Assembly: GCF_900119165.1 (NCBI RefSeq)
Contig: NZ_FPJG01000006.1
Span: 7,416,001-7,480,000 of the forward strand
Direction: 5' to 3'
DNA length: 64,000 nt
Source: Amycolatopsis australiensis
Lineage (GTDB): Bacteria; Actinomycetota; Actinomycetes; Mycobacteriales; Pseudonocardiaceae
A program made the position numbers and the translations under genes. Below, piece by piece: positions 15,067 through 20,619 of this stretch. Under the pieces are notes generated by a model that was not told the origin of the DNA, searched no databases, and saw nothing but the letters and a program-made list of their open reading frames with translations. The stretch's first letter is position 1, and the number at the start of each line of letters is the position of its first letter.

Positions 15067-15076
15067 CGTGGATCGG

Positions 15077-15508
15077 GTGAAAGGTATGAAACCCGTTGTC
15101 GGCGCGACCCCGCGCGTCGTGAAGTCCGAGCAGGAGTGGCGGGCGCAGCTCAGCCCCGACGAGTACGCCGTGCTCCGCCAGGCGGGGACCGAACGGCCGT
15201 TCACCGGCGAGTACACCGACACGAAGGCCACCGGCGTCTACGAGTGCCGCGCGTGCGGTGCCGAGCTGTTCCGCAGTGACACGAAGTTCGACAGCCACTG
15301 CGGCTGGCCGTCGTTCTACGACCCGGCGGACTCCGACGCCGTCCTGCTGCGCGAAGACCGTTCCATGGGCATGAAGCGGATCGAGGTGCTCTGCGCCTCC
15401 TGCCACAGCCACCTCGGGCACGTCTTCGAGGGCGAGGGCTACCCGACCCCGACCGACCAGCGGTACTGCATCAACTCGATCTCGCTGAAACTGGTCCCCG
15501 AGTCCTAA
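15077..15508 (+). CDS. msrB: Peptide-methionine (R)-S-oxide reductase MsrB
   Basis: A zinc-containing methionine-R-sulfoxide reductase that repairs oxidised methionine. Two CxxC pairs are visible (CRACG and CASCHSHLGHVF), and the redox cysteine is in QRYCINSISL. Length is 143 residues from GTG 15077. That start lies 7 nt after TAACGT (15064-15069), a leaderless arrangement; ATG 15086 and GTG 15068 are also in frame. msrB is the left-most member of the backbone shared with M. tuberculosis Rv2674 onward. Confidence 0.95.
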   Translation: MKGMKPVVGATPRVVKSEQEWRAQLSPDEYAVLRQAGTERPFTGEYTDTKATGVYECRACGAELFRSDTKFDSHCGWPSFYDPADSDAVLLREDRSMGMKRIEVLCASCHSHLGHVFEGEGYPTPTDQRYCINSISLKLVPES

Positions 15509-15582
15509 ATCTCCCTTAAGGGAGCAACCCGCCGCCCTTCCTCGAACGTAGTCTCCGCACACGGACGAGGGAGGGCGGACTC

Positions 15583-16485
15583 ATGACCGACACCTGGGGG
15601 ATTCCCGGACCGGTGTTCGCGGGCCTCTACGGCGGCTTGCTGCTCCTGCCGGCGCTGGTCGCCCTGGCGCGCGCCGGGCTGCTGCTGCGCGGCCGCGCGG
15701 GCGGCGGCCCGGACCGGCCCGAAGAGCTGGCGCTGCTGACCGGCGGCCGGCGGCGCTTCGCCGAGTTCGCCGTGGCCGGCCTGCTCGAACGGCAGGTGAT
15801 CCGCCTCGCCGGCGACGGGCGGCTGAGCCGGGTCAAGGGCAGCGCGCCCGACACCGTGGGCCGCGAGGTGCTGACCCGGATCGGCAAGCACGGCTCCTCG
15901 ATCGAGCGGGTGTGCGACGCCGTCGCGGAGCACGAGGCCGCGGCCGGCCTCGAGACCGCGCTGATCGGCCGCGGCCTGCTCGCCGATCCGCGGAAACTGC
16001 GGTCGACCTGGGTGGCGACCGCCGTGGCGTACTGGGTCGTGGTCGCCCTCGGCGTGGTCCGGCTGGTGGCCGGGGCGAGCACCGGGCACCCGGTGGGCAT
16101 CCTGCTGGGCCTGCTCGCGCTGGGCACGGCCGTCGCGGTCTTCGTCACCGTCAAGGCGCGGAACCGGCCCGCGGTCAAAGCCACCTTCGCCGGCCGGGCC
16201 GCCGCCGAGGCGGCACGCCGGTCCGGGACGCTCGTGACCGGCCCGGCCGGGGCCGTCGCGGCGGCGGGCCTGGCCGGCCACCCCGACCAGGACGTCCGGG
16301 CGGCCGTCACCCGGGCCGCGGAGCACTCGGCGGCGCGGACGTACAGCCGCCGCGCCCGATTCGCCGGCGCCGGGGGCGGCGCGGCCGTCGGCTACTACGG
16401 CGGCAGCTCCTGCGGCGGCGGTGGCAGCTCCTGCGGCGGCGGCGGAAGTTCCTGCGGCGGTGGCGGCGGGGGCTGCGGCGGTTGA
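15583..16485 (+). CDS. TIGR04222-like membrane protein with heptad Cys/Gly/Ser tail (candidate modified precursor 1)
   Basis: A 300-residue protein. It opens with TWGIPGPVF followed by a membrane span (about 10-30). A soluble helical domain (45-145) comes next, then one or two hydrophobic segments (about 145-190), and a C-terminal Cys-rich tail. The tail is regular: Cys277, 284, 291 and 298, each seven residues apart, in the frame SSCGGGG. The next gene is a paralog with the same design, and the third is a DUF692 enzyme. This combination of domain, tail and neighbour is what I recall of the TIGR04222 family. GGGAGG lies before ATG 15583. The role as a substrate of the enzyme is inferred. Confidence 0.8.
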   Translation: MTDTWGIPGPVFAGLYGGLLLLPALVALARAGLLLRGRAGGGPDRPEELALLTGGRRRFAEFAVAGLLERQVIRLAGDGRLSRVKGSAPDTVGREVLTRIGKHGSSIERVCDAVAEHEAAAGLETALIGRGLLADPRKLRSTWVATAVAYWVVVALGVVRLVAGASTGHPVGILLGLLALGTAVAVFVTVKARNRPAVKATFAGRAAAEAARRSGTLVTGPAGAVAAAGLAGHPDQDVRAAVTRAAEHSAARTYSRRARFAGAGGGAAVGYYGGSSCGGGGSSCGGGGSSCGGGGGGCGG

Positions 16486-16551
16486 AACGCCGACGCGACC
16501 GCCTGCGTCTGACCGCTACGGTAACCGCAACTCACTGAGGGGAGACGGGCG

Positions 16552-17454
16552 ATGGACGACCCGTGGGGCATCTCCGGACCGGATTTCGTGGTCCTCTACA
16601 TCGGACTGCTCGTCGGCGTGCTGCTGGTACGGGTCGTCGTGTCCGGCGTCGCGAACCGCCGCGCGCTGCGGGCGGACGCCGTCCAGGCCGGGTCGCCGCC
16701 GACCGTCTACGAGCTGGCGTTCCTCGCCGGCGGCCCCGACCGGGCGGCCGACGCGGCGATCGCGGCGCTGGTGGAGCGCGGGCAGCTGCGCGTCGGCAGC
16801 TCGAAGCAGATCAGCCGGGCCGGGACGCGGCCGGCCGAACCGCTCGAGCGCGCGGTGTTCGACCTGGCGAAGTCGGCGACGACCGCGACGATCCGGGCGT
16901 ACACCCGCGATTCGGCGGCGATGCGGGCCCTGGAAGACGGCCTCGACCAGCGCGGCCTGCTGGCGTCGCCGGCCGCGAAGCGGCAGGCCCGGACCGTCGG
17001 CCTGGTCCTGCAGCTGGCCGTGCTGGTGCTCGGCGTGGTGCGGCTGGTCAACGGCGTCCACCTGGGCCGCCCGGTCGGAATCCTGGTGTTCCTGGTCCTG
17101 GTCGCGGGCGTGCTGACGGTCGTGGCCGCGGTCCGGCGGACGAAGGCGGAGTCCCGGCAGCCGTCGGCCGCGGGGCATCGCCTGCTCGGCCAGGCGCGGT
17201 CCGCGGCGAACGGCCCGGTGCCGGCCGGGATGCCGGCGGGCGGCGTCCTGCTGGGCGGCGCCGCGGCCGCCGTCGCGCTGGGCGGCTGGGCGATGTACCC
17301 GGACGAGGAGCTGAGCGCGGCGCTGGCCCCGCCGGTCACCTCCTTCGGCGGCGGCGGTGGCTCGTCCAGCAGCGGGTCGTCGTGTTCCAGCTCGTCGTGC
17401 AGCAGCGGCTCTTCGTGTGGTTCTTCGTGCGGCGGCGGGGGTTGCGGTGGGTGA
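16552..17454 (+). CDS. TIGR04222-like membrane protein with Cys/Ser/Gly tail (candidate modified precursor 2)
   Basis: A second 300-residue protein built like its neighbour: the opening DPWGISGPDFVVLYIGLLVG, a soluble helical domain, two central hydrophobic segments (AVLVLGVVRLV and GILVFLVLVAGVL) and a low-complexity tail. Here the tail is richer in Ser, with cysteines at 278, 283, 289, 293 and 298, and ends CGGGGCGG like the first protein. The paralogs share both ends and diverge between them, as expected for an old duplication. GGGGAG precedes ATG 16552. The stop codon is overlapped by the next gene, so the two are translationally coupled. Confidence 0.8.
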   Translation: MDDPWGISGPDFVVLYIGLLVGVLLVRVVVSGVANRRALRADAVQAGSPPTVYELAFLAGGPDRAADAAIAALVERGQLRVGSSKQISRAGTRPAEPLERAVFDLAKSATTATIRAYTRDSAAMRALEDGLDQRGLLASPAAKRQARTVGLVLQLAVLVLGVVRLVNGVHLGRPVGILVFLVLVAGVLTVVAAVRRTKAESRQPSAAGHRLLGQARSAANGPVPAGMPAGGVLLGGAAAAVALGGWAMYPDEELSAALAPPVTSFGGGGGSSSSGSSCSSSSCSSGSSCGSSCGGGGCGG

Positions 17455-18247
17455 GCTCGGCATCGGGATCGGCTGGCGGCACGAGCTGGACCTGTCCATC
17501 GCGCGGCTGCCGGGCGTCGACTGGGTGGAGGTCGTCGCGGAGAACCTGCACGCCGACCACCTGCCGGAGACGCTGCTGGCGTTGCGGCGGCGCGGGCTGC
17601 CGGTGCTGCCGCACGCCGTCTCGCTGTCGCTCGGCGGGGCGGAACCGCTGGACACCGGACGCGTCCAGCACCTCGCCGAGGTCGCGCGGGCGCTGGACGC
17701 GCCGCTGGTGAGCGACCACGTGTGCTTCGTCCGCGCGGGCGGGCTCGACTCCGGCCACCTGATGCCGCTGCCGCGCACGCGCGAAGCGCTCGACGTGCTG
17801 GTGGCGAACGTCCGGCTGGCACAGTCCATTGTGGACGTGCCGTTCGCGCTGGAGAACATCGCCGCGGTGCTGGACTGGCCGGACGCCGAGCTGTCCGAGG
17901 AGCAGTTCCTCACCGAGCTGACCGAGCGGACCGGCTGCCTTCTCATCGTCGACGTCGCGAACCTGTACGCGAACGCCCGCAACATCGGCACGGACCCGGT
18001 GGCGTTCCTCGACGGCATCCCCTGGGAGCGGCTGGCGTACGTGCACATGGCGGGCGGCGTCGAGCGCGACGGCGTCTACCACGACACGCACGCGCACCCG
18101 GTGCTGCCGGAGGTCCTCGACCTGCTGACCGAACTCCGCCGCCGCACGGACCCGCCGGGAGTGCTGCTGGAACGCGACGACGACTATCCGACCGACGACG
18201 AGCTGGCGGCGGAGCTGGCGGCCCTGCGCGCGGCGGTGACGACGTGA
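17447..18247 (+). CDS. DUF692 / MNIO-family multinuclear iron oxygenase
   Basis: A 266-residue TIM-barrel protein of DUF692, the family of MbnB, TglH and ChrH. Those enzymes use two or three iron ions and oxygen to modify peptide cysteines. Family segments in order are GIGIGWRHEL, VEVVAENL, LPHAVSLSLGG, SDHVCFVRAGG, FALENIAAV, LIVDVANLYANARN, YVHMAGG, DTHAHPV and LLERDDDYP. They include the conserved His, Asp and Glu metal ligands. GTG 17447 overlaps the stop of the Cys-tail protein by 8 nt. The likely job is modification of the tails encoded just upstream; the chemistry is unknown. Confidence 0.9.
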   Translation: MGELGIGIGWRHELDLSIARLPGVDWVEVVAENLHADHLPETLLALRRRGLPVLPHAVSLSLGGAEPLDTGRVQHLAEVARALDAPLVSDHVCFVRAGGLDSGHLMPLPRTREALDVLVANVRLAQSIVDVPFALENIAAVLDWPDAELSEEQFLTELTERTGCLLIVDVANLYANARNIGTDPVAFLDGIPWERLAYVHMAGGVERDGVYHDTHAHPVLPEVLDLLTELRRRTDPPGVLLERDDDYPTDDELAAELAALRAAVTT

Positions 18248-18582
18248 GCCGCGAGAAGCTGGCCCGCCGCCAGGCCGAGCTGTTGCACGCGTTGCTGGCG
18301 GACGGCCCGGCCCCGGCGGGCTTCGACGCCGCCCGGCTGCGGGTGGAGGCGAACGTGCTGCGGCGCAAGCACGGCCGGGTGCTGGCTCACCAGCGGCCCG
18401 AGCTGGCGGAGGCGCTGGGCGAGCGGTTCGGGCCGCTGTTCGCGGAGTTCACCGCGGGCCGGCCGAAGCGGGACACCGAACGGTCGGGAGCGTACGCGGA
18501 CGAGTTCGTGACGTGGCTGATCGCCGGCGGTCACCTGCCGAAACCCAAGCGGGGCCTGGTTTCCCGCTTCCGGCGCCGCTGA
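18244..18582 (+). CDS. Small MNIO partner protein (DUF2063-N / SCO6045-like)
   Basis: A 112-residue, mostly helical basic protein. It starts with a helix (KLARRQAELLHALLADG) and has GERFGPLFAEFTAGRP and EFVTWLIAGGHLP further on. The helix-LGERF-F-RP-FxxWL pattern resembles the N-terminal half of MNIO partner proteins (DUF2063/MbnC type), which help bind the precursor peptide. I also recall a Streptomyces coelicolor protein in this position (SCO6045). The GTG start overlaps the enzyme stop as GTGA, so the two are translationally coupled. The gene ends 4 nt before the stop of the convergent CoA-transferase gene. Partner status is inferred. Confidence 0.7.
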   Translation: MSREKLARRQAELLHALLADGPAPAGFDAARLRVEANVLRRKHGRVLAHQRPELAEALGERFGPLFAEFTAGRPKRDTERSGAYADEFVTWLIAGGHLPKPKRGLVSRFRRR

Positions 18583-19927: not shown

Positions 19928-20619
19928 TACGGGAGCGCCGCGACGAGCTCGGCGGGCGGCACGCGCGTGCCCGTGTAGAACGGGATCTCCTCGCGCACGT
20001 GCCGGCGGGCCTCGGTGGCGCGCAGGTGCCGCATCAGGTCGACGATCCGGTGCAGCTCGTCGGCCTCGAAGGCGAGGATCCACTCGTAGTCGCCCAGCGC
20101 GAACGACGCGACCGTGTTGGCGCGCACGTCCGGGTAGTCGCGGGCCTCCTTGCCGTGGTCGGCGAGCATCTTGCGGCGCTCGGCGTCCGGCAGCAGGTAC
20201 CACTCGTACGACCGCACGAACGGGTAGACGCAGACGTACTTGCGCGCCTCTTCCCCGGCGAGGAACGCCGGGACGTGGCTCTTGTTGAACTCGGCGGGCC
20301 GGTGCAGCGCGGTCTGGCTCCAGACCGGCGTCGACGCGCGGCCCAGCGGCGTCCGGCGGAAGCCGGAGTAGGCGGCCTGGACCTGCTCGATCTCCTCGGC
20401 GTGCCACCAGATCATGAAGTCGGCGTCGGCGCGCAGCGCGGAGACGTCGTAGACACCCCGGACCACGACCCCCTTGGCCTCGAGGCCGTCGAGGTACTCG
20501 GTCGTCTCGCGGCCGGCGGTCCCGCGGTCCTCACCCAGCCTGCCGGGCTCGATCCGGAAGACCGACCAGGTGGTGTAGCGGATGGTGTCGTTGAGCTCGT
20601 TGTAGTTGACCCGCGCCAT
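19927..20619 (-). CDS. hemQ: Coproheme decarboxylase HemQ (ChdC)
   Basis: A 230-residue protein of the chlorite-dismutase fold that carries out the last step of the coproporphyrin-dependent heme pathway, oxidative decarboxylation of coproheme to heme b. Actinobacterial features are the N-terminal [43 protein letters not shown] (with the radical-forming Tyr) and [13 protein letters not shown]. It carries no chlorite-dismutase distal Arg signature that I can see. ATG 20619. It is followed without a gap by the CoA transferase and lies 57 nt downstream of the cgoX gene. Confidence 0.95.

Follow-up and report, generated by a model that had tools for sequence, protein, structure and literature searches.

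In the window analysed here, a stretch of 64,000 nucleotides from Amycolatopsis australiensis, positions 15583-18582 hold four open reading frames, all on the + strand, which encode two membrane proteins (A and B), an MNIO (DUF692) enzyme and a short partner protein; the features of the locus are the following.

15068-15508: msrB, upstream of A
15532..15578, + strand: 13-bp hairpin in the gap from msrB to A (folding energy -32.4 kcal/mol, z -4.4)
15583..16485, + strand: A, TIGR04222 membrane protein of 300 aa, putative MNIO substrate (ATG start; NCBIfam TIGR04222, 92.2 bits vs cutoff 43)
16399..16482, + strand: C-terminal 28 aa of A, a Gly/Ser/Cys tail holding 4 Cys with spacing 7-7-7, CGG end (sequence, tail statistics)
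16552..17454, + strand: B, TIGR04222 membrane protein of 300 aa, paralogous to A and likewise a putative MNIO substrate (ATG start; NCBIfam TIGR04222, 158.9 bits vs cutoff 43)
17341..17451, + strand: C-terminal 37 aa of B, a Ser/Gly/Cys tail holding 5 Cys, CGG end (sequence; disordered in the AlphaFold2 model)
17447..18247, + strand: MNIO (DUF692) enzyme, 266 aa (GTG start; PF05114, 280.8 bits vs gathering score 25)
18244..18582, + strand: MNIO partner, PME-type 2, DUF2063-like, 112 aa (GTG start; AlphaFold2 model, structural matches MbnC/TglI)
Other strand, downstream of the operon: CaiB-like CoA-transferase gene, HemQ (19930-20619), HemG, HemE

This gene set, two paralogous membrane proteins with Cys tails, the MNIO and its 112-aa partner, had been proposed in an earlier sequence-only reading and is borne out, together with the two overlaps (8 nt between the B and MNIO genes; GTGA between the MNIO and partner genes). 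A and B, which share 33% identity over 204 aligned positions, both score above the NCBIfam TIGR04222 cutoff (92 and 159 bits vs 43); the AlphaFold2 model of B has a pLDDT of 82 overall, and its tail is disordered, with values below 50 at residues 265-284 and 296-298. A match of B to the SCO2097 family was set aside, as it reaches 27 bits where the cutoff is 110 and covers the last two transmembrane helices; the ferritin matches of the TIGR04222 model, which look like generic helix packing, were also discarded, and the TIGR04222 profile matches MarR/Crp-like winged helices weakly (E 0.02-0.5). The structural match of the same model to GOLPH3/Vps74 is kept as a lead only, GPP34 being sub-threshold in 4 of 67.

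The MNIO is the sole PF05114 match in the A. australiensis genome. Nine of its residues (H56, H91, E136, D169, N172, H200, D213, H215 and E242), which we take to be metal ligands, are invariant among 21 aligned sequences, namely that of the window and 20 relatives, and all of them except H56 align with the same letters in a solved MbnB. Among NCBIfam models the enzyme scores best with BufB (203 bits), followed by HvfB (161), ApyH (98), ChrH (50) and MbnB (45), and it stays below the BufB cutoff (203.3 vs 310 bits). The partner matches Pfam DUF2063 below threshold only (E 0.0014), a weak signal also seen in 24 of 65 aligned members, and a PDB sequence search with it found no relative; its AlphaFold2 model (pLDDT 87) has MbnC and TglI as best structural matches, so that it combines an NGO1945/TglI-like predicted structure with the lack of a Pfam DUF2063 signature, as in the published definition of PME-type 2. 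SCO6045, after which proteins with the partner's domain are named, is H2O2-induced; these data come from Streptomyces, where substrates are not established.

The position of the operon between msrB and haem genes had been correctly noted before and read as a hint of an oxidative or iron link, of which it can be said that the neighbourhood is kept in part of the loci and that it borders a larger conserved block. HemQ is found no more than about 9 kb from the MNIO in 21 of 27 Streptomyces loci, in 37 of 50 other loci, for the most part from Pseudonocardiaceae, and in 0 of 3 Streptosporangiales; in a sample of the same order, with flanks of about 3-4 kb, it is found in 15 of 72 MNIO loci, all among the 32 of the window's family, and in 0 of the 40 others (L065-L104). 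The gene msrB occurs in 26 of these 72 loci, again all in the window's family; of the 50 named loci that belong neither to Streptomyces nor to Streptosporangiales, 40 have it directly upstream in the same orientation. In several of 13 loci compared with the window (L161, L183 and L200 among them), the conserved stretch runs past HemG and HemE to further genes; because they border this larger block, the msrB and haem neighbours are weak evidence of function, and their linkage was not used as such. As to regulatory elements, the 3' arm of the hairpin stops 4 nt short of the start codon of A, and most of the msrB-linked loci examined in the genus have the hairpin; an exact 14-bp palindrome (15511-15524) was found in none of 210 loci, save two containing the window's own site, and no promoter-like, terminator-like or Rfam match was found near the operon.

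The search across genomes suggested by the sequence-only reading, for DUF692 together with Cys-tailed TIGR04222 proteins, left its proposal standing: among 298 genomes of the same order, 101 have both TIGR04222 and MNIO, 30 TIGR04222 only, 5 MNIO only and 162 neither, counts in which up to 9 TIGR04222 candidates were scored per genome and the genomes are related rather than independent. This co-occurrence is not due to chance. The loci examined were 72 from 71 of the 106 MNIO-positive genomes of the order sample, plus 80 of at least 585 named relatives, with species partly shared and, the sequences being related, no count independent; locus L059, in which the MNIO is in three pieces, one sharing a frame with the partner, is left out of the resulting 151, as are, among the TIGR04222 matches listed, G271, G084 and G112, whose contigs end before the likely MNIO. 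A TIGR04222 gene lies within 2.5 kb upstream of the MNIO in 121 of the 151 loci (within 100 nt in 113), and 115 of these 121 proteins have at least three tail Cys. The partner follows the MNIO in 150 of 151 loci and is fused to it in 22 of these, the count for Streptomyces being 22 of 27 loci; with a Streptomyces fusion as query, PF05114 and PF26136 stood in one chain in all 120 matches listed of 4,651. The link also appears at a distance: in Antrihabitans, no TIGR04222 gene adjoins the MNIO, but a Cys-tailed TIGR04222 protein is encoded at another site of the genome. Exceptions are found as well. Of seven Streptomyces genomes searched, five (G300-G304) carry the fused enzyme but lack any TIGR04222 match; of the other two G299 has only a sub-cutoff TIGR04222 fragment and G305 a Cys-less TIGR04222 protein, so that some MNIOs of this type must have other substrates or be orphans.

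The number of tail Cys depends on the presence of an MNIO. At least three are found in 89 of 105 TIGR04222 proteins of MNIO loci and in 11 of 32 unlinked ones, all 11 within MNIO-bearing genomes (11 of 27); in MNIO-less genomes, where a TIGR04222 frame was recovered in 15 of 26 loci (25 genomes; two low-scoring, 18.5 and 25.3 bits), they are found in 0 of 20 TIGR04222-like proteins, whose last 70 residues hold two Cys in four cases and one in two. The arrangement of these residues was analysed in tails with at least two Cys and at least 75% G+S+C (n=207, 199 unique). CC and CxC clusters are the defining mark of metallothioneins; in the tails they account for 0 of 807 intervals, with about 165 expected from shuffles, whereas a spacing of 6 is taken by 279 of 807 (shuffle mean 52, maximum 77 of 500), and the residue after a tail Cys is Gly or Ser in 98%. 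The absence of clusters and the preferred spacing speak for single modification sites rather than a metallothionein. The tails are of low complexity, and regular spacing could arise by repeat slippage.

Taken together, co-occurrence, adjacency, a nearly universal partner, MNIO-partner fusion and MNIO-dependent tail Cys make it likely that enzyme, partner and Cys tails constitute one system, with the tails as probable substrates, as had been suggested from the sequence. The reading to which we assign a probability of roughly 0.6 is that a cytosolic complex of the MNIO and the 112-aa partner would oxidise single Cys in the flexible Gly/Ser tails of A and B, encoded directly upstream, the product being most likely a 5-thiooxazole, since the MNIO is akin to BufB/HvfB. 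A and B would be anchored by three transmembrane helices, N-out and C-in, an arrangement that would most likely leave the tail on the cytosolic face, within reach of the enzyme after membrane insertion, and the modified tail, tethered to the membrane, might bind copper(I) or a related soft metal or else buffer redox changes. Gene order, family identity, site spacing and partner similarity are computed observations, as are the fusions and the MNIO-dependence of tail Cys; tail modification, its product, the side of the membrane and the metal or redox role are deduced from them.

The main alternative keeps enzyme and substrates and places the tail externally, where it would face the surface or the periplasm and trap metal in the manner of a bufferin; surface display had been proposed in the sequence-only reading, and periplasmic tails are inferred, in the passages that treat such clusters, by Antoine et al. 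2025 (PMC12452194). It is consistent with the periplasmic action of bufferins and with a fourth, weakly hydrophobic segment before the tail, which reaches a KD of 1.6 in 51 of 137 proteins. This segment is a 12-residue helix in the AlphaFold2 model, broken at a nearly invariant Pro-Asp and too short for a membrane span; moreover, all 137 unique proteins among 143 full-length TIGR04222 hits carry their positive charge on the domain side, with about 12.6 K/R there vs 0.7 on the other side (1.7 including the end of helix 2), the Cys-less paralogues of one genus have an Arg-rich end after the same segment, and an outside tail would need export after modification. Charge pattern and model thus point to a tail more likely cytosolic than surface-exposed, which makes surface display doubtful and the external trap unlikely, if the strongest of the competing explanations. 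The side assignment hinges on that one weak hydrophobic segment.

That the tail Cys function unmodified, in disulfides or in zinc or haem binding, while the MNIO acts on another, unseen substrate, appears improbable: MNIO-partner fusions without TIGR04222 and the two-Cys tails of MNIO-less genomes would fit this explanation, yet Cys number tracks the enzyme, CC and CxC are absent, and when nine exceptional loci were searched, in frames of at least 70 aa, for further G/S-rich tails with Cys, the one candidate was an antisense frame within the L181 MNIO gene. Still less credible, to the point of being nearly dismissed, is the explanation of the tails as drifting low-complexity sequence joined to the operon by shared ancestry only. 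The codons GGC (Gly), AGC (Ser) and TGC (Cys) are one step apart in G+C-rich DNA; drift of this kind would nevertheless hardly yield the missing clusters and the strong spacing peak described above, nor the lack of Cys in all 13 unlinked TIGR04222 hits of one genus, none of which has a G/S tail. Cys is likewise absent from the four usable tails of G/S-tailed TPM and DUF2207 proteins (53 loci), a sample too small to lean on.

Modified tails would mean that ordinary membrane proteins bear a post-translational modification across a large actinobacterial group, and would take MNIO chemistry past small secreted peptides; whether the result is an external metal trap or an internal metal or redox buffer or sensor depends on which side of the membrane the tail faces. 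More speculatively, and with the odds somewhat against it, MNIOs may place heterocycles on resident integral membrane proteins instead of secreted peptides, forming at the inner membrane face of actinobacteria a cytosol-facing, tethered array of modified Cys (typically one per five to seven residues) that would sense or buffer copper or peroxide, with tails encoded elsewhere modified in trans. Simple test systems are provided by the natural MNIO-partner fusions and by the one genome with an unlinked MNIO and Cys-tailed protein.

Among characterised systems, the closest MNIO relatives by NCBIfam score are those of bufferins and captophorins (BufB, HvfB, FonB), which form 5-thiooxazole and, like the present system, involve a flexible chain with recurrent Cys-Gly pairs (EGKCG in the former, GSSCGG-type in the latter). 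Their precursors carry Sec signal peptides, whereas the substrate here would be a membrane protein, and their partners are full-length PME-type 1 proteins (DUF2063 + RRE, about 250-260 aa) instead of one short 112-aa domain; A and B have no Pfam match to DUF2282 or another bufferin domain at E 0.1, so that the locus lacks the precursor domain and the PME-type 1 partner of a bufferin system as well as a BufB-level score. MbnBC and TglHI also pair an MNIO with a partner, and the partner model resembles MbnC and TglI; they differ in acting on peptide precursors, in their products and in being less similar in sequence (the window's enzyme scores 45 bits with the MbnB model). Of the leader peptide, maturation protease and exporter of a classical RiPP, none is found among the operon's four genes.

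The cluster type itself is not undescribed, as had been supposed, since Antoine et al. 2025 (PMC12452194) report clusters of TIGR04222 and MNIO genes, the Cys-rich tails being putative substrates and the short partners of PME-type 2, in what the passages of that paper present as a genome survey without experiments on them. Those clusters agree with ours in the TIGR04222 protein with a C-proximal, Cys-rich Ser/Gly tail, the adjoining MNIO, the short DUF2063-like partner and the distribution, mostly in Actinomycetota; in the same passages PME-type 2 is predicted in at least 10%, many clusters apparently being without it, and no mention is found of MNIO-partner fusions or haem genes. In the open-access literature searched, TIGR04222 is otherwise named only in a 2016 account of a Pseudonocardia cluster (PMC5183585), where the protein was read as a ribosomally made, modified product and the cluster termed a bacteriocin cluster, in a passage without MNIO or membrane tail; PME-type 2, SCO6045-like and PF26136 are named there in PMC12452194 only. 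New here are the near-universal partner, the fusions, the tail Cys that track the MNIO, their spacing, and the evidence for the cytosolic side.

The stretch encodes two TIGR04222 membrane proteins of 300 aa each (A and B), an MNIO (DUF692) enzyme and a DUF2063-like partner protein, the four genes all running in one direction.

Features of the operon
15532-15578, strong hairpin between msrB and A
15583-16485, + strand, A: passes the TIGR04222 cutoff; Gly/Ser tail with 4 Cys, terminal residues CGG
16552-17454, + strand, B: passes the TIGR04222 cutoff; Gly/Ser tail with 5 Cys, terminal residues CGG
17447-18247, + strand, MNIO: GTG start, 8-nt overlap with B, far above the PF05114 threshold
18244-18582, + strand, partner: 112 aa, GTGA overlap with MNIO

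The four-gene arrangement proposed in the sequence-only reading is sound, since open reading frames, families, overlaps and Cys tails are all recovered, and the A/B-MNIO-partner system is real. A and B share 33% identity over 204 aligned positions; the enzyme is the sole PF05114 match in the 9.3-Mb genome, a third TIGR04222 match in that genome, below cutoff, belongs to the DUF2207 type and lacks a Cys tail. Among named organisms, Amycolatopsis supplies the closest relatives of both B and the partner. The system had also been called undescribed, which is not borne out: it is a member of a kind already described from genome surveys. According to the available excerpts of Antoine et al. 2025 (PMC12452194), more than 3,500 TIGR04222 proteins were collected, those with C-proximal Cys adjoining MNIO genes were proposed as substrates, and the short partners, among them one of 115 aa from Saccharothrix, were termed PME-type 2; the idea of tails as substrates is thus already published as a hypothesis, and these excerpts contain no experiment on the TIGR04222-MNIO group. 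In the open-access literature searched, TIGR04222 is otherwise named only in PMC5183585 (2016), the excerpts of which assign such a Pseudonocardia protein to a bacteriocin cluster. What is new here is the near-universal occurrence and fusion of the partner, the spacing of the Cys sites, the comparisons suggesting that tail Cys depend on MNIO across the genome, and the arguments for placing the tail in the cytosol.

The co-occurrence of the two families across genomes, a check named in the sequence-only reading, is present: among 298 genomes of the order, 101 carry TIGR04222 and MNIO, 30 TIGR04222 alone, 5 MNIO alone and 162 neither. For comparison, 100 loci and the window were taken, of which 29 lack MNIO and 72 carry it, the latter coming from 71 of the 106 MNIO-positive genomes; tail Cys were counted over the last 70 residues. 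Tails with at least three Cys are found in 89/105 TIGR04222 matches inside MNIO loci vs 11/32 outside, and all 11 belong to genomes with MNIO elsewhere (27 unlinked matches in such genomes); in MNIO-less genomes there are none among 20 matches (5 in this set and 15 in a second one), four having two Cys and two having one. In one genus, unlinked matches have neither a G/S tail nor Cys (13/13), and in Antrihabitans, where the MNIO gene has no TIGR04222 neighbour, an unlinked TIGR04222 protein carries a four-Cys tail. Tail Cys thus appear to depend on the presence of MNIO in the genome as a whole. At one locus (L059) MNIO is broken into three separate frames and the linked tail has a single Cys, a same-genus relative having four; joint decay of enzyme and tail, or a sequencing fault, is possible.

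The partner is near-universal in the MNIO loci sampled, and is also found fused to the enzyme. Counting against a dependence of tail on enzyme, no TIGR04222 match is found in five of the seven Streptomyces genomes searched (G300-G304), despite a fused MNIO-partner enzyme; the other two have one TIGR04222 fragment and one Cys-less TIGR04222. In those five (L183, L185, L186, L196, L200) the fusion lies near hemQ/hemG. In Lentzea (L159-L161, L165, L166, L168, L170), three to four TIGR04222 paralogues stand in a row ahead of MNIO, some with very Ser-rich tails of up to 12 Cys without a CGG end.

As to the side of the membrane, where the sequence-only reading had a surface display, a cytosolic tail is favoured, against the published reading in the excerpts of PMC12452194, with a probability of about 70%. 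Three strong hydrophobic stretches (hydropathy of 80 linked proteins) match AlphaFold2 helices 9-40, 140-170 and 176-197 of B, with basic residues following the first and third and preceding the second; their mean is about 12.6 on that side vs 0.7 on the other, in 137/137 proteins, and if the end of helix 2, with a nearly invariant Arg, is counted, the other side rises to 1.7, the order being kept in 137/137. A weak fourth segment reaches a hydropathy (KD) of 1.6 in 51/137; as modelled in B (pLDDT 82), it breaks at Pro-Asp into two helices, the first of 12 and the second of 7 residues. The same side is suggested by the Cys-less paralogues of one genus, Arg-rich at the end beyond this segment, and by the DUF2207-type relative, which, judged from sequence, begins with what resembles a signal peptide and has an outer part ahead of the domain. 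In structure, the TIGR04222 domain of the B model weakly resembles GOLPH3/Vps74 (GPP34), and 4/67 relatives give GPP34 matches below threshold; a distant kinship with these membrane-surface domains is possible.

The placing of the operon between msrB and heme genes holds: msrB precedes A by 74 nt and is found immediately upstream in 40/50 named loci outside Streptomyces and Streptosporangiales, HemQ and HemG being close by in many loci (HemQ in 21/27 Streptomyces and 37/50 others). As evidence for the oxidative or iron link hinted at from it, this neighbourhood has little weight: HemQ forms the border of a conserved stretch of greater length and is not near MNIO in order-sample families other than that of the window. 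The hairpin is common to 15 same-genus loci picked for alignment, its flanks changed yet still pairing; in L134-L137 it has the typical form of a terminator, with a T-run behind it, while in the clade of the window the likely ribosome-binding site of A lies within the 3' arm.

With regard to chemistry, the best NCBIfam scores of the enzyme are BufB (203 bits) and HvfB (161), both below cutoff, and since these are reported to make 5-thiooxazoles (excerpts of PMC13097082), this would be the likeliest product. The source name "SCO6045-like C-terminal domain" is given to proteins carrying PF26136, the domain of the partner, either by itself or MNIO-fused; by this name and the other Streptomyces loci, S. 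coelicolor SCO6045 is a putative MNIO-partner fusion. In the excerpted parts of PMC4991794, H2O2 raises its expression 3.0-fold in the wild type, no gene being up-regulated in the mutant without HbpS-SenS-SenR, and cysteine-biosynthesis genes are in the same table. Copper, gold and oxidative stress are also stated to be frequent inducers of such pathways (excerpts of PMC13097082), and a metal or redox role is thus plausible.

The tail Cys are regularly spaced: in 199 unique tails, 279 of the 807 Cys-to-Cys intervals are of 6 residues (mean 52 and maximum 77 in 500 shuffles) and 535 of 5 to 7, although short-repeat slippage could contribute and the tails are related. Gly follows Cys in 73% and Ser in 25%, and 108/199 tails end in CGG. 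Intervals of 1 and 2 (CC, CxC) are absent (0/807 vs 86 and 79 expected), which argues for separate sites and against a metallothionein-like tail. The pattern is similar to the EGKCG repeats found in captophorins, in which, according to the excerpts of PMC13097082, Cys are converted into 5-thiooxazoles associated with copper.
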